Source: an uncultured Maribacter sp. (GTDB lineage: Bacteria > Bacteroidota > Bacteroidia > Flavobacteriales > Flavobacteriaceae). From it: a stretch of DNA of 64,000 bases. Made by a program: the position numbers and the translations under genes. The notes under the pieces were generated by a model. It was not told where the DNA came from and made no database searches. It saw nothing but the letters and a program-made list of their open reading frames with translations. Below, piece by piece: positions 20,906 to 49,911 of this stretch. The stretch is taken from assembly GCA_947504045.1 (NCBI GenBank), contig CANNFY010000001.1:1178001-1242000 (forward strand), read 5' to 3'. Positions within the stretch are counted from its first letter, which is position 1, and each line of letters begins with the position of its first letter.

Positions 20906-22222
20906 TTAATATCTATAATACTCTGGCTTAAAAGGCCCTTTAACAGTTACGCCAATATACTCTGCTTGGTCTTCTCTTAATTCTGTAAGTTCTACACCAA
21001 TTTTTGCTAGGTGTAATTTTGCAACCTTCTCATCTAAATGTTTTGGAAGCATATATACTTTATTTTCATAAGCATCTCTATTGGTCCAAAGCTCTAATTG
21101 CGCAAGTGTTTGGTTTGTAAAAGAATTACTCATAACAAAACTTGGGTGACCAGTAGCACAACCAAGGTTTACCAAACGACCTTCGGCAAGAATAATAATA
21201 TCTTTTCCGTTAATGGTATATTTATCTACTTGTGGTTTAATTTCTACTTTGGTATTGCCATAGTTTCCGTTTAACCAAGCCATATCAATTTCATTATCAA
21301 AATGACCAATATTACATACAACAGTCTTGTCTTTCATAGCTTCAAAATGTCTTCCTTGAACTATGTCTTTATTCCCTGTAGTAGTAATAACAATATCAGC
21401 ATTACCAACAACAGTTTCTAAACGTTTTACTTCAAAGCCATCCATTGCAGCTTGTAAAGCACAAATTGGGTCAATTTCTGTAACGGTAACAATTGCTCCA
21501 GCTCCTTTAAAAGAAGCAGCAGAACCTTTACCAACATCACCATAACCACAAACAACTACACGTTTACCAGCTAACATTAAGTCAGTAGCACGTCTTATAG
21601 CATCTACAGCACTTTCACGACAACCATATTTGTTATCGAATTTAGATTTTGTAACCGAGTCGTTAATATTTATAGCAGGCATTGGTAAAGTGCCATTTTT
21701 CATTCTTTCATATAAACGGTGAACACCAGTTGTAGTTTCTTCACTTAACCCATTTATACCAGCTGCAAGTTCTGGAAACTGGTCTAATACCATATTAGTT
21801 AAATCGCCACCATCATCTAAAATAAGGTTTAGAGGTTTTTTGTCTTCGCCAAAAAATAAGGTTTGTTCTATACACCATTCAAATTCTTCTTCTGTCATAC
21901 CCTTCCATGCGTAAACAGGTATGCCTGCCGCTGCAATTGCTGCTGCTGCTTGGTCTTGTGTAGAAAATATGTTGCAAGAGCTCCAAGTTACATCTGCACC
22001 TAAAGCAACTAAAGTTTCTATAAGTACAGCGGTTTGTATGGTCATATGCAAACAACCAGCAATTCTAGCTCCTTTTAAAGGCTGCTGATCTTTATATTCT
22101 TCACGAAGAGCCATTAACCCAGGCATTTCTGCTTCAGCAAGGTTAATTTCTTTTCTACCCCAATCTGCTAGGGAAATATCTTTTACCTTATAAGGTACAT
22201 AAGAAGTAGTTTTGGTGCTCAT
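20906..22222 (-). CDS. ahcY: adenosylhomocysteinase
   Basis: 438 residues. It hydrolyses S-adenosylhomocysteine to adenosine and homocysteine in the methyl cycle. Visible motifs include [16 protein letters not shown], the [16 protein letters not shown] segment, and the NAD-binding loop [11 protein letters not shown]. The C-terminus ends KPEYYRY as usual. On the minus strand an exact -7 element TACCTTTG lies at 22289-22282, giving a leader of about 50 bases. Confidence 0.97.
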
Positions 22223-22309: not shown

Positions 22310-22942
22310 ATGCCACTCTACAAGACAATAGAAGTAAATTCCTCTACTAAAATATACATTTGGAAAATTCAAGAAACAGAAAAAGAACTTTCCAATAATA
22401 TTTTTTTAAACCAACATAGCTTAGAGAGAATTGGGAGAATGAAATCTGAAATGCATAGAAAAGGGTTTTTAAGTATACGACACTTAATGGCCGAAGCGGG
22501 TTATAAAGACTCAGATATGTATTATGATGCTATTGGAAAACCACATTTAAATGATGGTAATAAAATATCTATTACACATTCTAACCATTTTACTGGTATT
22601 ATTATAAGCTCTACAAATGATGTTGGGATTGATATAGAGAAACAGCGAGAAAAAATTTTAAGAATAGCACATAAATTTACCCCTCAAAAAGAATATAGAA
22701 CCATTGCCAATACTGAAGCACTTATAAGAAAACTTACTATTGTTTGGGGTTGCAAAGAGTCTTTGTATAAGATATATGCCCAAGAAGGACTTAGTTTTTT
22801 AAAAGATATTATAATTAATAATTTTGACATGGTAGATGGGAAAACCACAGGAGAAATTATGTATAATAGAAAACACTCTCATTATTCTATTGGGTTTTTA
22901 GAGTTTGAAGAATTTACATGTGTTTATGCGTTAAATAAATAA
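22310..22942 (+). CDS. 4-phosphopantetheinyl transferase superfamily protein
   Basis: 210 residues. The Sfp-type catalytic motifs are visible: VGIDIE with Asp108 and Glu110, and WGCKESLYK with Lys149, Glu150 and Lys154. ISITHSNHFT (86-95) is also characteristic. It transfers the phosphopantetheine arm of CoA to carrier proteins. It is divergent from ahcY and lies 59 bases before the thiamine-binding protein gene, so it may or may not share that transcript. No carrier-protein synthase cluster is nearby. Confidence 0.85.
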   Translation: MPLYKTIEVNSSTKIYIWKIQETEKELSNNIFLNQHSLERIGRMKSEMHRKGFLSIRHLMAEAGYKDSDMYYDAIGKPHLNDGNKISITHSNHFTGIIISSTNDVGIDIEKQREKILRIAHKFTPQKEYRTIANTEALIRKLTIVWGCKESLYKIYAQEGLSFLKDIIINNFDMVDGKTTGEIMYNRKHSHYSIGFLEFEEFTCVYALNK

Positions 22943-23001
22943 TATACTTTTTTTCTTTTATATGTTATATTTATTAAGCGTATAAAGGGTATTTTTATAC
23001 T

Positions 23002-23262
23002 ATGAATATATCTGTAGAATTAACGTTTTCTCCTTTACAGGATGATTTTGAAGAGCATATAATTAATTTCATAAAAAAAATAAGAAGCTCTGGCTTAACT
23101 GTTTTAGAAAATCCTTTAAGCACACAAGTGTATGGAGAATATGATGCGGTAATGAAAGTTCTTTTTGTAGATATAAAAGAAGCTTTTGAAATAATGAATA
23201 AAGGATTACTTTATATAAAAGTAGTAAAAACGGACCGTAGCGAATATGAGCCACATTTTTGA
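23002..23262 (+). CDS. YkoF-like thiamine-binding protein (Thiamine_BP/DUF77 family)
   Basis: 86 residues, the length of a single YkoF/MTH1187 domain. It starts with a beta strand, NISVELTFSPLQ, and carries STQVYGEYDAVM, which resembles the conserved TQI-GDYD ligand region of the family. It overlaps the PnuC-like permease gene by 17 bases, and a TPP riboswitch follows about 3.3 kb downstream. A role in binding or delivering thiamine in the cytoplasm is a sound inference. No signal peptide is present. Confidence 0.78.
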   Translation: MNISVELTFSPLQDDFEEHIINFIKKIRSSGLTVLENPLSTQVYGEYDAVMKVLFVDIKEAFEIMNKGLLYIKVVKTDRSEYEPHF

Positions 23263-23884
23263 TTGGATTTTTGCACAATACCAAGGCACTCCAATACATT
23301 TAATTGTTTTAGAGTTTATTGGGGTTTTTTTTGGCTTTTTAAGCGTTTGGTTTTCTAAAAAAGAAAATATACTAGTTTTTCCAACAGGTATTATTAGCAC
23401 TGCTATTTTCGTATATATTTTATTGGTATTTGGTTTGTTAGGAGATATGCTAATAAATGCTTTTTACTTTATAATGAGTATTTATGGTTGGTATGTTTGG
23501 ACAAGAAAAGTAGATAAAGATAGTTATATACCTATAACTAAAATGACAAACTTAGATAAGAAATACAGTAGTATCATGTTTGTTGGCACAATTATATTTG
23601 TAGGTTTAGTATATTTTATATTTAATAAATTTAATAGCTGGACCGCATACGTAGATACTATTACCACAGCAATATTTTTTGTTGGAATGTGGTTAATGGC
23701 AAAGAAAAAATTAGCCAATTGGGTTTTTTGGATTATTGGCGATATTGTTTCTGTACCATTATATTTATATAAAGGTTTAATTTTTACAGCACTCCAATAT
23801 TTATTATTTACTATTATTGCTATATATGGTTACAAAGTATGGATAAAAAGTTTAAACAAGAGTCCTCAAACATTGTTAAAGTAG
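23246..23884 (+). CDS. pnuT: PnuC-family vitamin transporter, probably thiamine (PnuT)
   Basis: 212 residues with about seven transmembrane helices and the PnuC hallmarks YGWYVWTRK and ANWVFWIIGDI. The family imports nicotinamide riboside, riboflavin or thiamine and depends on a kinase to trap the substrate. The upstream thiamine-binding gene and the downstream kinase and TPP-regulated receptor favour thiamine. Nicotinamide riboside with a NadR-type kinase remains possible. It overlaps both neighbours (17 and 46 bases), so translation is coupled. Confidence 0.8.
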   Translation: MSHIFDWIFAQYQGTPIHLIVLEFIGVFFGFLSVWFSKKENILVFPTGIISTAIFVYILLVFGLLGDMLINAFYFIMSIYGWYVWTRKVDKDSYIPITKMTNLDKKYSSIMFVGTIIFVGLVYFIFNKFNSWTAYVDTITTAIFFVGMWLMAKKKLANWVFWIIGDIVSVPLYLYKGLIFTALQYLLFTIIAIYGYKVWIKSLNKSPQTLLK

Positions 23885-24402
23885 TATTGTTTGGCCCAGA
23901 ATCTACTGGTAAAACAACATTATCAGAACAATTAGCAAGGCATTATAATACGGTTTGGGTTCCAGAGTATGCAAGAGAATATTTGCAAAATAAATGGAAT
24001 AACGAAAGAAAAACCTGCGAACCATCAGATTTACTTCCTATTGCAGAAGGGCAAATACGGTTAGAAAACCAACTTACTAAAAAAGCCACTAAAGTATTAA
24101 TTTGTGATACCGATTTGTTAGAAACTAAAGTATATTCTGAAGCATATTATGTAGGCCATTGCGACCCCGTTTTAGAAAAGTATGCTCTTGAAAATACCTA
24201 TAACTTGTATTTATTAACATATATAGATATTCCATGGGAAGAAGATGACCTTAGAGATAAACCTAACGAAAGAGAAAAAATGTTTTTATATTTTAAAGAC
24301 ACTCTAGAAAAATATAACAAGAATTTTATTATCTTAAAAGGAGAAAAAAAACTACGCCTTAAAACAGCAATTAATTATATAGATAAATTTTTAGAAAAAT
24401 GA
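23839..24402 (+). CDS. NadR-like P-loop kinase (AAA_28), predicted vitamin-trapping kinase
   Basis: 187 residues. The P-loop is FGPESTGKTTLS, followed by VPEYAREYL as in the ribosylnicotinamide kinase domain of NadR. It lacks the adenylyltransferase domain of full NadR. It starts 46 bases inside the permease gene. By analogy with PnuC systems it phosphorylates the imported vitamin: thiamine if the permease is PnuT, or nicotinamide riboside if it is PnuC. The context favours thiamine, but the ligand cannot be read from the sequence. Confidence 0.8.
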   Translation: MDKKFKQESSNIVKVVLFGPESTGKTTLSEQLARHYNTVWVPEYAREYLQNKWNNERKTCEPSDLLPIAEGQIRLENQLTKKATKVLICDTDLLETKVYSEAYYVGHCDPVLEKYALENTYNLYLLTYIDIPWEEDDLRDKPNEREKMFLYFKDTLEKYNKNFIILKGEKKLRLKTAINYIDKFLEK

Positions 24403-25940
24403 TACAACTAACGGATAGTGATAATGCTCAATTAGAAAAAAAAGGAATTTCAAAAGAAAAAGTTAGAAACCAAATAGAAACTTTTATAGAAGGTATACCA
24501 TTTGTAAATCTAGAAAAAGCAGCTATTGTAGAAGAAGGTATTTATAAATTCTCTAAAAATGAAGAAGAAGAATTAATTAAGTACTACGAAACGTTTCCTA
24601 AAAACCTTTCTATATTAAAATTTGTACCAGCATCTGGAGCAGCATCAAGAATGTTTAAAGCTCTTTTTAACTTTTTAGATTCTTATAATTATAAAGAGGA
24701 AACATTTCAGGAGTACGTATCTAGAACAAATGACAAGAGTATGGAAGCTTTTGTTTCTAGTATAGAAAACTTTCCATTTTATAAAAAGGTAAAAAATTTA
24801 ATTGCTGGTAAAACTTCTGATGAAAACGAAGTAATTTTTTTATTTGTAAAACAACTTTTAGGAGAAGAAGGTTTAAACTATGGGTTTTTTCCAAAAGGAC
24901 TTCTTCCTTTTCATGATTATATAGAATATACGGCTACACCTTTTGAAGAACATTTATTAGAAAGTGCTGTTTATGCTAAATCAGGAAAACAAGCAAATTT
25001 ACATTTTACAATTTCTGAGCAGCATAAAGAAATGTTTTTAGAAGAACATGCAAGCATAAAAGATAGAGTATCTAAAAATACCGGAATAGAATATACCATA
25101 TCTTATTCGTTTCAAAAAAGTGCTACAGACACCATTGCGGTAGATATGGATAATAAGCCATTTAGAAATACAGATGGTTCTATATTATTTAGACCAGGAG
25201 GGCATGGAGCATTAATAGAAAATTTAAATGAGCAAGATGCCGATATTATATTTATTAAAAATATAGATAATGTTGTAGTTCCTAAACAAATTGAAATATT
25301 AGGAAATAGTAAAAAGGTTTTAGCTGGGGTTTTATTACAAGCACAAGAAAAAGCATTTAAATATTTAGAAGCTTTGGAAACAGCTACAATTTCTGATGAG
25401 GATGAACTATTAAAAATTAAAAACTTTTTAGAAGATAAGTTAAATGTAAGATTTATAGATAGCTTTAGTACGTACTCTTTAGAAGAAAAAATTAGTGTTT
25501 TAAAAGATAAATTAAATAGACCGATAAGAGTTTGCGGAATGGTAAAAAATGAAGGGGAGCCAGGAGGAGGTCCTTTTTGGGTTAAAGATTCTTCAGGAAG
25601 AACCTCTTTACAAATTATAGAGTCTGCACAAATAGATATGTCTTTAGAAAATCAGGCATCAATTTTAAAGAATGCTACACACTTTAACCCTGTAGATTTG
25701 GTATGCGGAGTTAAAAATTACAAAGGAGAAAAGTATAATCTTTTAAATTTTGTAGATGTTAAACAAGGTTTTATTACAGGAAAAACAAAAGAAGGTAGAG
25801 AATTAAAAGCACTAGAGTTACCTGGTCTGTGGAATGGAGCAATGGCCTTCTGGAATACCATATTTGTTGAGGTTCCGTTAGAAACCTTTAATCCTGTAAA
25901 AACAGTAAACGACCTTTTAAAGCCATCTCATCAGGCATAA
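24399..25940 (+). CDS. DUF4301 family protein
   Basis: 513 residues. The segment FVPASGAASRMFK (near residue 80) resembles the GxGTRM nucleotide-sugar pyrophosphorylase signature, and FRPGGHGALIENLN is the other strong conserved block. Together they suggest a nucleotidyltransferase-like fold. The start overlaps the kinase stop by 4 bases (ATGA), so the two are tightly coupled. Its role in the vitamin operon is unknown. A strong terminator follows at 25961. Confidence 0.8.
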   Translation: MIQLTDSDNAQLEKKGISKEKVRNQIETFIEGIPFVNLEKAAIVEEGIYKFSKNEEEELIKYYETFPKNLSILKFVPASGAASRMFKALFNFLDSYNYKEETFQEYVSRTNDKSMEAFVSSIENFPFYKKVKNLIAGKTSDENEVIFLFVKQLLGEEGLNYGFFPKGLLPFHDYIEYTATPFEEHLLESAVYAKSGKQANLHFTISEQHKEMFLEEHASIKDRVSKNTGIEYTISYSFQKSATDTIAVDMDNKPFRNTDGSILFRPGGHGALIENLNEQDADIIFIKNIDNVVVPKQIEILGNSKKVLAGVLLQAQEKAFKYLEALETATISDEDELLKIKNFLEDKLNVRFIDSFSTYSLEEKISVLKDKLNRPIRVCGMVKNEGEPGGGPFWVKDSSGRTSLQIIESAQIDMSLENQASILKNATHFNPVDLVCGVKNYKGEKYNLLNFVDVKQGFITGKTKEGRELKALELPGLWNGAMAFWNTIFVEVPLETFNPVKTVNDLLKPSHQA

Positions 25941-25960
25941 AATTTAGACTCAAAAAAAGA

Positions 25961-25988
25961 AAAAGCTGCATTTGCAGCTTTTTTTTTG
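25961..25988 (+). terminator. terminator of the predicted thiamine uptake operon
   Basis: Arms AAAAGCTGC and GCAGCTTTT with a 4-base loop, followed by a long T run. It ends the transcript containing pnuT and the DUF4301 gene. Confidence 0.85.
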
Positions 25989-26073
25989 CTCTAAAGTGTG
26001 ACTTTTTAAAAACACCTGTGTCTTAATATATGTAAGGCAAATAATACTAACCTTTTTTAAAACATAAAATAGA

Positions 26074-26163
26074 ATGATTACTACAGTTTTTGCAATAGTT
26101 GGATGTGTAACTTTTATAATATCCCTTTGCGTAATTGCAGCAATATGTTGGGAAAAAGATTAG
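26074..26163 (+). CDS. 29-residue single-helix membrane mini-protein
   Basis: An ATG at 26074 opens a frame of 29 codons that is almost wholly hydrophobic (MITTVFAIVGCVTFIISLC) and ends in WEKD. It has an A-rich upstream region like its neighbours and is followed 19 bases later by another small membrane protein gene. It lies after the DUF4301 terminator. I do not recognise it. The AT-rich background makes chance possible. Confidence 0.4.
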   Translation: MITTVFAIVGCVTFIISLCVIAAICWEKD

Positions 26164-26182
26164 TCTAAAAAAATATAATAGT

Positions 26183-26374
26183 ATGAAGCATTTTATAAAA
26201 TCTGTAATAATGGGTATGGTAACTATATTAATATGGTTTTTAGCAAGTGTTGAAATGAAATCAGAAATGAAATCAGAAAATATTGCAGCAGTAACAATAG
26301 AAAATAATAATGAAAACATACAAAAATCCTTTTTAGAAACACTAACCATGAACTATGAGGATATAATCAATTAA
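26183..26374 (+). CDS. 63-residue membrane mini-protein
   Basis: From the ATG at 26183 it has one transmembrane helix (about residues 5-22), then a polar tail with a repeated MKSE pair and Asn/Glu-rich segments. An in-frame ATG 16 codons upstream is less likely because it would overlap the preceding mini-gene. Probable partner of the 29-residue protein. Family unknown; no enzymatic motif. Confidence 0.5.
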   Translation: MKHFIKSVIMGMVTILIWFLASVEMKSEMKSENIAAVTIENNNENIQKSFLETLTMNYEDIIN

Positions 26375-26581
26375 AATTTCTTTTTAAGCAAGGTTCCCCC
26401 TTTTTTAAGTCGTATTTCTCTTTAAATAAGTAATTGTTTAATTAGTAAAGGGTTTGTTAGTTAATTGCATTTAAAAGTTATACTTATTTTTGGTTGGTTG
26501 TTAGGGGTTGCTTCGGCAGCTCCTTTTTTTTTGCTTTATATTTTTCTTAACATTTTATTATGATAAATTAAAAAGCAGTAT

Positions 26582-26589
26582 TACATTTG
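26582..26589 (+). promoter_or_regulatory. -7 element for the TPP riboswitch transcript
   Basis: TACATTTG matches TAnnTTTG and ends 1 base before the aptamer's CCCC. It would start the mRNA within the first bases of the aptamer. Confidence 0.6.
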
Positions 26590-26590
26590 C

Positions 26591-26672
26591 CCCATCTCAA
26601 AGGGGTGCTTGCATATGTAGGCTGAGATTATACCCAATGAACCTGGGCAGATAATGCTGCCAAGGGATCCGT
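26591..26672 (+). ncRNA. TPP riboswitch
   Basis: The THI-box landmarks occur in the right order: GGGGTGC, GCTGAGA, ACCC, TGAACCTG, the P4/P5 hairpin GGCAG-ATAATG-CTGCC, and AAGGGA. This is a thiamine pyrophosphate aptamer. It controls the downstream TonB-dependent receptor gene, which starts about 110 bases later, and so labels that receptor as a thiamine or thiamine-precursor importer. Confidence 0.95.
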
Positions 26673-26781
26673 TGTAAAGTATTTAGCTTTTTTACAAATA
26701 ATTTATGGTTATTAAATAAGCCATAAAATAAATTAACAACTAGAATAACAGCCCCTTTTATTCGTAACTAATGTAATACGA

Positions 26782-28995
26782 ATGAAAATTTTTTTCGCAA
26801 CAATGGCAACTTTTTGCCTAACTATGGCCGTATGGGCCCAAGATCAGCCAACAGATTCTTTAACGGGTAAAAAAGTAATTCTTGATGAGGTTTTTGTATC
26901 TGCCGTAAGAGTAACAAAAGAATCTCCTGTAACCTTTACCAATTTAACAAAAGAAGAGATTGCGCCTAGAAATTTAGGGCAAGACATTCCTATTTTAATG
27001 AACTTTTTACCTTCTGTAGTAACTACATCAGATGCAGGTGCAGGAGTTGGTTATACCGGAATTAGAGTTCGTGGTAGCGATGCTACAAGAGTAAATGTAA
27101 CTATAAATGGTATACCATATAATGATCCAGAATCTCAAGGTACTTTTTGGGTAAATATGCCAGACTTTGCCTCATCTACAGAAAGTTTACAATTACAACG
27201 TGGTGTAGGTACATCAACAAACGGAGCCGGAGCTTTTGGTGCAAGTTTAAATTTGTTAACCGATGGTTTTTCAGAAGAAGCTTTTGGGCAAATAGCATCT
27301 TCTATAGGTAGTTTTAATACGTTAAAAAATACAGTTAAATTTAGCACTGGGTTATTAAATGATCATGTAGAAATTGCAGGGCGTTTATCCAGAATTACTT
27401 CAGATGGTTATATAGACAGAGCATCGTCAGATTTAGATTCTTATTTTTTACAAGGAACCTTTAAAAGTGATAAAACCTTATTAAAAGCATTATTATTTGG
27501 CGGACATGAAGTAACCTATCAAGCTTGGTACGGAACACCTTTAGCAAGAATTAATAATGATGAAGCGGGTATAGAAGAATTTATTGCAGAAAATTATCTT
27601 TCAGATGCAGAAGCAGAAAATTTAAGAAACTCGGATCGTAGATATAACTACTATACCTATGAAAATGAAGTAGATAATTACAAGCAAAACCATGCGCAAT
27701 TACTTTGGAACCAACAATTAAATACAAATTGGAGCTCTAATTTAGCTTTTCATTATACAAGAGGAAGAGGATATTTTGAGCAGTTTAAAGTAGGTGAAGA
27801 TTTTGCAGATTATGGTATTACTCCAATTAATATTGATGGAGAGGATGTTAACACTACCGATATTATTAGAAGACGTTGGTTAGACAACCATTTTTACGGA
27901 ACAACATTTTCTGCAAATTATATTAACAATAAAATTAATTTAATAATTGGTGGTGCATGGAATAAATATGAAGGAGCCCATTATGGAGAAGTTATTTGGG
28001 CAGAATTTGCTAATAATATTAATTATGGAGATTTGTATTATGATGACGATTCTATAAAAACAGATTTTAGTATTTACACAAAAGCAAATTATAAATTAAA
28101 CCAGCAGTGGAGCGTGTACGGAGATTTACAATTACGTACTGTTGGGTATACAGCTAATGGAGAAGATACAGGAATTGTAGATGATACGTTTACTTTTTTT
28201 AATCCTAAAGCTGGGATTACATTTGATTTAAACAAGAATAATAACTTCTATCTTTCTTATGCAATAGCAAATAGAGAGCCTAATAGAAATGATTATGAAA
28301 ATGGAAATCCTAAACCAGAACGTCTTGGCGATTTAGAATTAGGTTGGCGTTATATTTCTCCTAGTGTACAATTAAATACGAATGTTTATTACATGAAGTA
28401 TAAAGATCAATTAGTACTTACAGGAGAGCTTAACGATGTTGGAGCACCATTACGAGCTAATGTAGGAGATAGTTACCGTTTGGGTCTAGAAGTAGACGCT
28501 AATATTAGTTTGGGAGAACATTTTGCTTTAAGACCAAATATTACTTTAAGTCAGAATAAAAACAAAGACTTTATTTTTCAAAGAGATGGTGTTGTTCAAA
28601 ATTTGGGCGATACAGAAATTTCTTTTTCTCCAAGTGTAGTTGCTGGTGGAGCTTTTGCTTATATGCCTAAAGAAAATATACAATTAGCACTACTAGGAAA
28701 ATTTGTAGGAGAACAATACATGGGTAATATAGATGCTGAGTCTTCTAAGTTAGATAGCTATTCGCAGTTTGATTTTAATGTGCAATATGCTATTTATACA
28801 AATTCATTTATAAAAAGTATTGTTTTATCTGGTTTAGTAAATAACATATTTAATAAAAAATATGTGTCTAATGGATATTTTTTTACATATGACGATACAT
28901 GGTCTAATCCTGGTGTAACAACTACAATAGAAGGAGCCGGGTATTATCCACAAGCAGGCACTAATTTTTTATTAGGAGCTACATTTAATTTTTAA
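26782..28995 (+). CDS. TPP-riboswitch-controlled TonB-dependent receptor, predicted thiamine importer
   Basis: 737 residues. A signal peptide (about 1-20, with the predicted cleavage at VWAQ) is followed by a plug domain (about 30-160, with VRVRGSDATRVNVTING features). A 22-strand barrel occupies the rest, ending in Phe. No N-terminal carboxypeptidase-like SusC domain is seen, so it is a classic vitamin or siderophore type receptor. The TPP riboswitch in its leader points to thiamine or a thiamine precursor. It forms the outer-membrane part of the uptake system whose inner part is the PnuC-type permease. Confidence 0.9.
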   Translation: MKIFFATMATFCLTMAVWAQDQPTDSLTGKKVILDEVFVSAVRVTKESPVTFTNLTKEEIAPRNLGQDIPILMNFLPSVVTTSDAGAGVGYTGIRVRGSDATRVNVTINGIPYNDPESQGTFWVNMPDFASSTESLQLQRGVGTSTNGAGAFGASLNLLTDGFSEEAFGQIASSIGSFNTLKNTVKFSTGLLNDHVEIAGRLSRITSDGYIDRASSDLDSYFLQGTFKSDKTLLKALLFGGHEVTYQAWYGTPLARINNDEAGIEEFIAENYLSDAEAENLRNSDRRYNYYTYENEVDNYKQNHAQLLWNQQLNTNWSSNLAFHYTRGRGYFEQFKVGEDFADYGITPINIDGEDVNTTDIIRRRWLDNHFYGTTFSANYINNKINLIIGGAWNKYEGAHYGEVIWAEFANNINYGDLYYDDDSIKTDFSIYTKANYKLNQQWSVYGDLQLRTVGYTANGEDTGIVDDTFTFFNPKAGITFDLNKNNNFYLSYAIANREPNRNDYENGNPKPERLGDLELGWRYISPSVQLNTNVYYMKYKDQLVLTGELNDVGAPLRANVGDSYRLGLEVDANISLGEHFALRPNITLSQNKNKDFIFQRDGVVQNLGDTEISFSPSVVAGGAFAYMPKENIQLALLGKFVGEQYMGNIDAESSKLDSYSQFDFNVQYAIYTNSFIKSIVLSGLVNNIFNKKYVSNGYFFTYDDTWSNPGVTTTIEGAGYYPQAGTNFLLGATFNF

Positions 28996-49212: not shown

Positions 49213-49911
49213 ATGTTTGGATTTGATATAGGATACATTGTAATTGCAGGAGCTTTTGGGTTATTTAGCATGTTTGTAAGTAATCGTCTTAAAAGTAAAT
49301 TTAAAAAGTATTCTCAGGTACACCTGCGAAATGGATTAAGTGGAGCAGAAATTGCTGAAAAAATGTTAGCGGATCATGGTATTAGAGATGTAAAAGTTAT
49401 TTCTACACCAGGAATGTTAACAGACCATTATAATCCTGCTAATAAAACAGTTAATTTAAGTGAAGGGGTTTATGCGCAAAGGAATGCTTCTGCAGCTGCA
49501 GTTGCAGCACATGAATGTGGACACGCGGTACAACATGCAACAGCATATAGTTGGTTACAAATGCGTTCTAAATTAGTGCCAATTTTAAATATTACTTCAA
49601 GATTTTCTATGTGGGTAATTTTTGGTGGAATGGCACTTATGAGTACTACTGCAATAGGCGGAACCATTGCATGGGTTGGTGTAGCATTATACGGTATAGG
49701 AACTTTATTTAGTTTTGTAACACTACCTGTAGAATATGACGCTAGTAATCGTGCATTAGCATGGTTAAAGAATAAAAATATGGTTAGCCAAGAAGAATAT
49801 GCTGGGGCAGAAGATGCGCTTAAATGGGCTGCTAGAACGTATTTAGTTGCTGCTATTGGTGCGTTAGCAACATTATTATACTTTGCTATGCGTGTAGCAA
49901 GTAGAGATTAA
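49213..49911 (+). CDS. neutral zinc metallopeptidase (Zn_peptidase_2 family)
   Basis: 232 residues. A transmembrane helix at the N-terminus, then the zinc motif HECGHAVQHA (about 97-106), followed by two more hydrophobic segments (about 130-175) and a last helix. Membrane-bound zinc protease of the kind encoded widely in bacteria. Substrate unknown. A terminator follows at 49934. Confidence 0.85.
   Translation: MFGFDIGYIVIAGAFGLFSMFVSNRLKSKFKKYSQVHLRNGLSGAEIAEKMLADHGIRDVKVISTPGMLTDHYNPANKTVNLSEGVYAQRNASAAAVAAHECGHAVQHATAYSWLQMRSKLVPILNITSRFSMWVIFGGMALMSTTAIGGTIAWVGVALYGIGTLFSFVTLPVEYDASNRALAWLKNKNMVSQEEYAGAEDALKWAARTYLVAAIGALATLLYFAMRVASRD

Follow-up and report, generated by a model that had tools for sequence, protein, structure and literature searches.

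A predicted thiamine salvage locus with a NadR-like kinase in Maribacter and related Flavobacteriales

The locus analyzed here lies between positions 20906 and 28995 of a 64,000-nucleotide stretch of DNA, called the window below, from an uncultured Maribacter sp. whose genome is 3.46 Mb in size and 99.7% complete. A run of four overlapping genes, for a small Thiamine_BP-like protein, a Pnu-family permease, a NadR-like kinase and a DUF4301 protein, is followed by a thiamine pyrophosphate (TPP) riboswitch and a TonB-dependent receptor gene. We consider it probable that the locus serves thiamine salvage, with a thiamine kinase of NadR descent feeding ThiL. The features are, in window positions:

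20906-22222, divergent, upstream of the gene at 22310: ahcY (open reading frame (ORF) list and Pfam)
22310-22942, plus strand: 4'-phosphopantetheinyl transferase, PPTase (PF01648; adjoins ahcY also in relatives)
23002-23262, plus strand: Thiamine_BP/YkoF-like protein of 86 residues (near the Pfam cut-off, an orthologue above it)
23246-23884, plus strand: Pnu-family permease of 212 residues, predicted thiamine importer, PnuT-like (Pfam, tree)
23839-24402, plus strand: stand-alone NadR-like P-loop kinase (AAA_28) of 187 residues, predicted thiamine kinase (Pfam, model, trees)
24399-25940, plus strand: DUF4301 protein of 513 residues with a predicted UDP-sugar-pyrophosphorylase fold (Pfam, structure model)
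26503-26532, plus strand: terminator-like hairpin with T tract (pattern match only)
26591-26684, plus strand: TPP riboswitch aptamer, leader of the receptor gene (covariance-model scan, covariation)
26782-28995, plus strand: TonB-dependent outer-membrane receptor of 737 residues, predicted thiamine receptor, OMthi-like (Pfam; position after the riboswitch kept)

The genes in the four-gene run overlap by 17 bases (Thiamine_BP-like gene and permease), 46 bases (permease and kinase) and 4 bases (kinase and DUF4301), and both the ORFs and the Pfam matches bear out the run as a first-pass annotation of the window had described it. That annotation had also placed a TPP riboswitch at 26591-26672 in the receptor leader. 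A scan of the whole window with Rfam at the gathering score gave no TPP match, and a relaxed scan of 1,001 bases gave an RF00059 aptamer at 26591-26684 with 42.0 bits (E 1.2e-6, below the gathering score of 54.3), which lacks one variable hairpin of the RF00059 consensus. When the pairs of the aptamer, assigned manually on the basis of the Rfam consensus, were followed through 22 homologous leaders, 96.0% of 352 cells could pair and changes on both sides were seen in 8 of the 16 pairs. The covariation score was 0.393, which none of 500 shuffles reached (their mean was 0.147); shuffling ignores relatedness, and six slid controls that keep it gave a maximum of 0.131. The consensus structure of RF00059 is backed by this covariation, and it is clear that the riboswitch is real and conserved. 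In the 80 Flavobacteriales genomes surveyed below, TPP matches at E <=0.01 were present in 75 and exceeded the gathering score in 30.

A custom aptamer model, built from the 22 leaders including that of the window itself, found a single convincing copy in the window with 90 bits. The next best match (49562-49647, minus strand, 17.1 bits) was taken as chance, as was a third weak TPP match of the same genome (L004, 20.6 bits), which by eye is flanked by non-thiamine ORFs. The aptamer ends 97 bases before the receptor start and lies downstream of the operon, past the terminator-like hairpin, and can therefore serve only the receptor in cis. The hairpin is weak evidence alone, since four such sites were found between 22000 and 29200 where shuffling gave an expectation of 2.9. 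The riboswitch thus does not lead the pnuT operon, and control of the whole operon in cis was rejected because the aptamer is 3' of the operon and the window holds no second convincing one.

The conservation of the neighborhood was followed in 80 named loci, the best 80 of 584 DUF4301 relatives, and since only the best-scoring loci are included the family of the window is over-represented among them. The closest named DUF4301 relative found is from an uncultured Maribacter (77% identity; records of the window's own genome were possibly excluded). A permease is present in 63 of the loci, with a separate kinase in 41, a kinase-DUF4301 fusion in 16, and DUF4301 but no kinase in six; two of the remaining 17, both from Aquimarina, keep DUF4301 with only ahcY/PPTase, and the other 15 lack all of these genes. 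The custom model placed 64 aptamers in 61 of the 80 loci (three loci have two), and all 61 fall within the 63 that have the permease. An arrangement often seen in other families runs from a divergent ahcY through PPTase, PcrB, Thiamine_BP, permease and kinase to riboswitch and receptor, mostly without DUF4301. NAD genes in homologous operons had been named at the outset as an observation that would speak against thiamine; none was seen in the mapped loci, though no search aimed at NAD genes was made. The PPTase gene stands first in the conserved neighborhood and is probably functionally unrelated to the rest.

Two variations on this arrangement were seen. A PcrB-family gene (L008:5102-5857), missing in the window, lies between PPTase and Thiamine_BP/permease in many relatives, and in three named loci a second TPP aptamer is found just 3' of the receptor gene (L107:12596-12693, L110:17220-17317 and L117:13819-13917).

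Families and trees of the kinase and the permease

The kinase matches AAA_28 (PF13521, 7e-43) as the sole Pfam domain in its 187 residues, and the Pfam scan detected neither a TPK catalytic domain nor a nicotinamide mononucleotide (NMN) adenylyltransferase domain in it. With 109 of 341 bits it stays below the cut-off of the NCBIfam NadR equivalog. The structure model (pLDDT 94.7) matches NadR 8x7f best (TM 0.86 on the query); the kinase has Walker A and DTD motifs and has W-x-x-D-x-x-R in common with 1lw7 and 8x7f.

In a tree of 82 rows, including the window row and rows of other orders, the kinases form two groups, of which one includes the window and has 17 rows (85/91) and the other has 41 rows (100/98). 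This tree replaced a smaller one without the window row, in which there was a single kinase group (83/92). As a topology with one kinase clade was not rejected (p-AU 0.378), these kinases may have been recruited once or twice from a NadR-type ancestor. The kinases are clearly separate from other AAA_28 genes, recQ-linked ones included (100/100). The kinases of L067 and L180 were excluded from the trees because they do not match the P-loop pattern, although in L067 a P-loop lies in frame upstream of the chosen start. The second AAA_28 gene of the window's own genome was rejected as a thiamine or nicotinamide riboside kinase, since it falls in the separate group (100/100); it directly precedes a recQ-like helicase gene (L063:4109-6572), a pairing also present in genome G011 (L065). 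In genus g43 of family f6 the kinase lies inside one ORF of 401-409 residues (L085:1232-2461 and L185:1482-2687), and the L085 ORF also matches the PPTase profile, which suggests a PPTase-kinase fusion.

The permease, the only PnuC of its genome, matches PF04973 with 5e-53. On the permease tree, from which the PnuC of L233 was excluded, it belongs to a 22-row group (100/99) that holds none of the five NadR-adjacent PnuC rows used and that includes the TPK-adjacent L215 and the riboswitch-led L043 and L045; another TPK-adjacent permease, L192, lies outside this group near the NadR rows. A single permease clade that tracks the kinase was not found, the kinase label requiring 8 changes on the permease tree. 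In G081 and G026 and, by coordinates, in G072, G080 and G099 a TPP aptamer stands immediately 5' of a second pnuT, and in two loci (L043:5996-7731 and L045:5990-7738) an acyl-CoA-dehydrogenase-like ORF of 330-343 residues (weak Pfam matches) comes next and overlaps this pnuT. In a distant relative (L187:2072-3304) a sodium:solute symporter gene follows receptor and TPK in place of the Pnu permease, and similar symporter-like ORFs were noticed by eye 3' of TPK in several other loci.

The 86-residue protein scores 23.8 bits against Thiamine_BP, where the cut-off is 24.9, and one of five orthologues scanned, that of L041, exceeds the cut-offs of both PF01910 and Ykof (PF07615). The protein probably buffers thiamine or hands it over; a hand-over to the kinase in particular is something we only infer.

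Taken at their names, these families would point to nicotinamide riboside uptake by PnuC and a riboside kinase, with a thiamine receptor merely adjacent. The permease indeed passes the cut-off of the NCBIfam PnuC nicotinamide riboside transporter model (TIGR01528, 101.5 vs 42.45), no PnuT model being among its NCBIfam matches, and the kinase belongs to the NadR kinase family and fold. Nevertheless we find this explanation unlikely. In five loci (L039, L040, L041, L067 and L072) the cluster has lost the permease but keeps Thiamine_BP and kinase side by side, and in L039, L040, L041 and L072, which represent several families, the receptor stays as well. Within the class, some genomes also hold, separate from their thiamine-type kinase, a NadR-like protein with a PnuC of its own, as seen in G102 and G161, where the adenylyltransferase domain is above cut-off, and in G094, where NadR was recognized by length only. 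Nicotinamide riboside uptake would further leave 40 ThiL-carrying genomes, described below, with no identified source of thiamine monophosphate. The first-pass annotation had preferred thiamine over nicotinamide riboside, a choice that gains support from the neighborhood, from the separate bifunctional NadR and from the pattern of TPK, ThiL and the ThiE family. The available part of a paper on L. lactis NadR (PMC7221760) gave no usable substrate pocket of the kinase domain for a comparison of riboside-binding residues.

Distribution of thiamine enzymes in Bacteroidota

The genome of the window has no match to TPK_catalytic (PF04263) at E 0.01, and has a ThiL match of 315 bits. A TPP riboswitch with a strong score (79.6 bits) precedes what looks like a full thi operon, whose genes were named by eye except for two PF02581 genes. 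For the order, 118 genomes were surveyed for PnuC and 80 of these for the other families; the omissions were chosen by us and fall mostly in f4, f6 and f14. Above cut-off we found TPK in 28 of the 80 genomes, ThiL in 75, PF02581 (ThiE and TenI) in 30 and AAA_28 in 71. Rows below cut-off were dropped from the PnuC and AAA_28 surveys, and for PF02581 29 of the 30 genomes were used, the marginal match of G030 being counted as absent. A kinase was counted as thiamine-linked when it lay <=1 kb from pnuC on the same strand or <=5.5 kb from a TPP aptamer. A first limit of 4.5 kb gave 45 of 52 TPK-less genomes with such a kinase; 5.5 kb added G104, and inspection of L067, L070 and L074 led to the manual addition of G006, G018 and G039, which brought the count to 49 of 52, the widening and the hand additions having been decided after the data were seen.

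By this count 59 of the 80 genomes have a thiamine-linked kinase, 49 of them the kinase only and ten both enzymes, while 18 have TPK only and three have neither (Fisher p 3e-8, relatedness ignored). Forty genomes have ThiL above cut-off and neither TPK nor a ThiE-family match above cut-off, and the kinase is present in every one of them. A strict count gives 34 of 40, leaving out G006, G018 and G039, whose kinases do not lie near permease and riboswitch, as well as G104 and two f8 genomes. Eight of the 40 (G001, G031, G056, G061, G066, G071, G075 and G098) belong to the kinase group of the window (f1, f2); among them G098 has no TPK and a fused kinase that keeps its P-loop. Kinase or TPK was found in 50 of 51 ThiE-less genomes; the one that lacks both measures 0.3 Mb and also has no ThiL match. 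The remaining two of the three genomes without either enzyme carry ThiE. ThiL acts on thiamine monophosphate, and in genomes that have neither ThiE nor TPK the monophosphate must consequently derive from phosphorylated thiamine, a step for which the thiamine locus offers this kinase as the candidate.

We therefore favor a thiamine salvage locus in which the riboswitch-controlled receptor would bring thiamine across the outer membrane and the Pnu permease would pass it through the inner membrane; PnuT was reportedly described by Jaehme in 2018 as a facilitated-diffusion carrier. The stand-alone kinase, kin of the ribosylnicotinamide kinase domain of NadR, would then phosphorylate thiamine to thiamine monophosphate and so trap it, and ThiL, encoded elsewhere, would make TPP. 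The kinase would in this way fill the role played by TPK (Tnr3) in Bacteroides and by ThiK in E. coli. Substrates and activities are here predicted from sequence.

That the kinase replaces TPK in the phyletic pattern could also mean that it is a direct pyrophosphokinase converting thiamine to TPP, which we regard as highly improbable. ThiL is kept in the 40 ThiE-less genomes, where it would have no substrate beside such an enzyme, and NadR-type kinases as a family make monophosphates. What a direct enzyme is expected to bring about is seen in three 0.6-Mb genomes with TPK, where the ThiL matches are weak (22-27 bits, far under cut-off). Equally hard to credit is a system that imports and phosphorylates a thiamine precursor, either hydroxymethylpyrimidine (HMP) or thiazole alcohol. 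The apparently complete thi operon would make precursors usable in the genome of the window, but in 41 TPK-less genomes with the kinase there is no ThiE-family match, so precursors could not be joined by that route.

A second sample of 118 genomes covered the phylum, the kinase and TPK surveys being taken as the same draw. In other orders of the same class, 15 of 16 genomes match the kinase profile with no listed TPK match and one has TPK without the kinase; the 15 kinase ORFs span 168-210 residues in 13 cases and 284 and 481 residues in two, and of the 15 loci ten have a permease adjoining the kinase and three have a riboswitch near. Among 88 more distant genomes of the phylum TPK was found in 50 and kinase-profile matches in four, all of them longer NadR-like proteins of 300-412 residues; CTP_transf_like was above cut-off in G129, below it in G202 and not found in G142, while G146 was outside the scan.

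Several observations count against a thiamine kinase. Its best solved relatives are NadR proteins, and the permease, as said, satisfies a nicotinamide riboside transporter model. In the 82-row tree the NadR rows and one f8 kinase are unresolved beside the two kinase groups, the f8 kinase being placed near the NadR rows, and a single kinase clade is not demonstrated. Ten genomes of one genus (g2) have both TPK and the kinase, the P-loop of the G104 kinase is degenerate, and in the two f8 genomes the riboswitch is found on a different contig. ThiE absence is judged by one family model and the related genomes are non-independent. YjbQ may substitute for ThiE, according to the part of PMC5613172 available to us. 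No other source of thiamine monophosphate was found for the 40 genomes among the families searched, of which ThiK was not one. Outside the order, the custom model, which derives from Flavobacteriales leaders, gave no riboswitch close to 12 of the 15 kinase loci, and 38 of the 88 distant genomes show no TPK and no stand-alone kinase of the type described, so that on present evidence the kinase-or-TPK rule is not extended to them.

In the ten g2 genomes the kinase is in each case fused to DUF4301 in open frames of 733-800 residues. The g2 TPK exceeds the TPK equivalog cut-off (L205:1417-2079 and L207:1417-2079) and has DSAI where four other aligned TPKs have DGGAN or DGGGN.

The DUF4301 protein

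The DUF4301 protein matches PF14134 with 6e-219 and narrowly misses the Pfam UDPGP cut-off (21.1 of 22 bits). Its structure model (pLDDT 91.7) led Foldseek to UDP-glucose/UDP-GlcNAc pyrophosphorylases of eukaryotes, with a best E of 2.9e-11 (3r3i) and a predicted fold agreement of TM about 0.4-0.5 (0.46 on the query for the best match). Among the residues invariant in 28 DUF4301 sequences are P-A-S-G followed by R-M-F, P-K, R-P-x-G-H-G, K-N-x-D-N and G-G-G-P-F. The family is present in 25 of 80 genomes of the order and in 33 of 198 genomes of the phylum.

The first-pass annotation had suggested that DUF4301, joined to the operon by its 4-base overlap with the kinase, may add an undescribed step. 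In all 16 DUF4301 loci examined outside the order there is no thiamine-locus gene within about 5 kb on each side, and no consistent neighbor emerged there among 13 neighbors scanned. We lean toward DUF4301 being a housekeeping NDP-sugar pyrophosphorylase that merely shares the operon, as would fit the fold match, the 16 loci just mentioned, the glycogen synthase gene that adjoins DUF4301 in three of the scanned f2 and f8 loci, and the two Aquimarina loci that keep DUF4301 with permease and kinase absent. Weighing against this are the kinase-DUF4301 fusions, 21 ORFs with the P-loop intact in every one (16 named, mostly from Flavobacterium but also from Croceivirga and uncultured Bacteroidota, and five in further genomes), and the six named loci without kinase in which DUF4301 overlaps or abuts the permease.

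For DUF4301 an enzyme of sugar nucleotides is the more cautious interpretation, and thiamine nucleotidyl transfer the bold one. In the bold case kinase and DUF4301 would form a two-step thiamine nucleotidylation module in Flavobacteriaceae, in which the kinase may make thiamine monophosphate and the pyrophosphorylase-fold protein may join a nucleotide to it, giving a nucleoside thiamine diphosphate. RibF, a pair of kinase and adenylyltransferase, serves alongside NadR as the model for this analogy. Its main support is the kinase-DUF4301 fusion in Flavobacterium and some relatives; the separation of the two genes in other lineages weighs against it, and we rate the module as a very long shot.

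Comparison with known systems

If the predicted thiamine kinase is real, it would name the missing thiamine-trapping enzyme of many Flavobacteriales and neighboring orders, where family models suggest NAD salvage, and would be an instance of the fold of a vitamin B3 kinase having been taken over for vitamin B1. It would have to be corrected which Bacteroidota are predicted to get by on thiamine from their surroundings, and DUF4301, a family for which one paper came up in the open-licence library, would obtain a functional context. Term searches of open-licence PMC papers, judged by titles, the openings of abstracts and selected passages, gave no description of a NadR-like thiamine kinase, and a prior description is possible. 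In related work the specificities of Pnu transporters have been read from the riboswitch class, as the accessible part of PMC7749635 has it.

The uptake part of the proposed route, from receptor to PnuT, fits the locus as the first-pass annotation had read it, and it is already known in Bacteroides; what differs is the trapping enzyme. According to the available parts of PMC5613172 and PMC6977713, Bacteroides has TPP riboswitches and pairs a TonB-dependent receptor and PnuT with the enzyme Tnr3, and in the OMthi/PnuT/Tnr3 system of Bacteroides thetaiotaomicron receptor and permease were shown to matter at low thiamine (Costliow and Degnan 2017, PMC5613172). Judged by these parts, the two systems have in common a TPP riboswitch before a TonB-dependent receptor, a Pnu permease close by and trapping by phosphorylation, which is predicted here. 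Unlike the Bacteroides system the window has no TPK (Tnr3) but a NadR-like kinase, a Thiamine_BP-like protein and DUF4301 instead, and its riboswitch stands before the receptor only.

With the kinase domain of NadR (1lw7, 8x7f, 6gye) the window kinase shares the P-loop kinase fold, Walker A and DTD. Unlike NadR it stands amid a riboswitch and thiamine-type genes and is without the NMN adenylyltransferase domain. The overall fold of DUF4301 is predicted to be like that of UDP-glucose/UDP-GlcNAc pyrophosphorylases. ThiK of E. coli, an APH-type kinase, converts thiamine to thiamine monophosphate, which ThiL then uses; the reaction predicted for the window kinase is alike, and the two enzymes belong to different kinase families.

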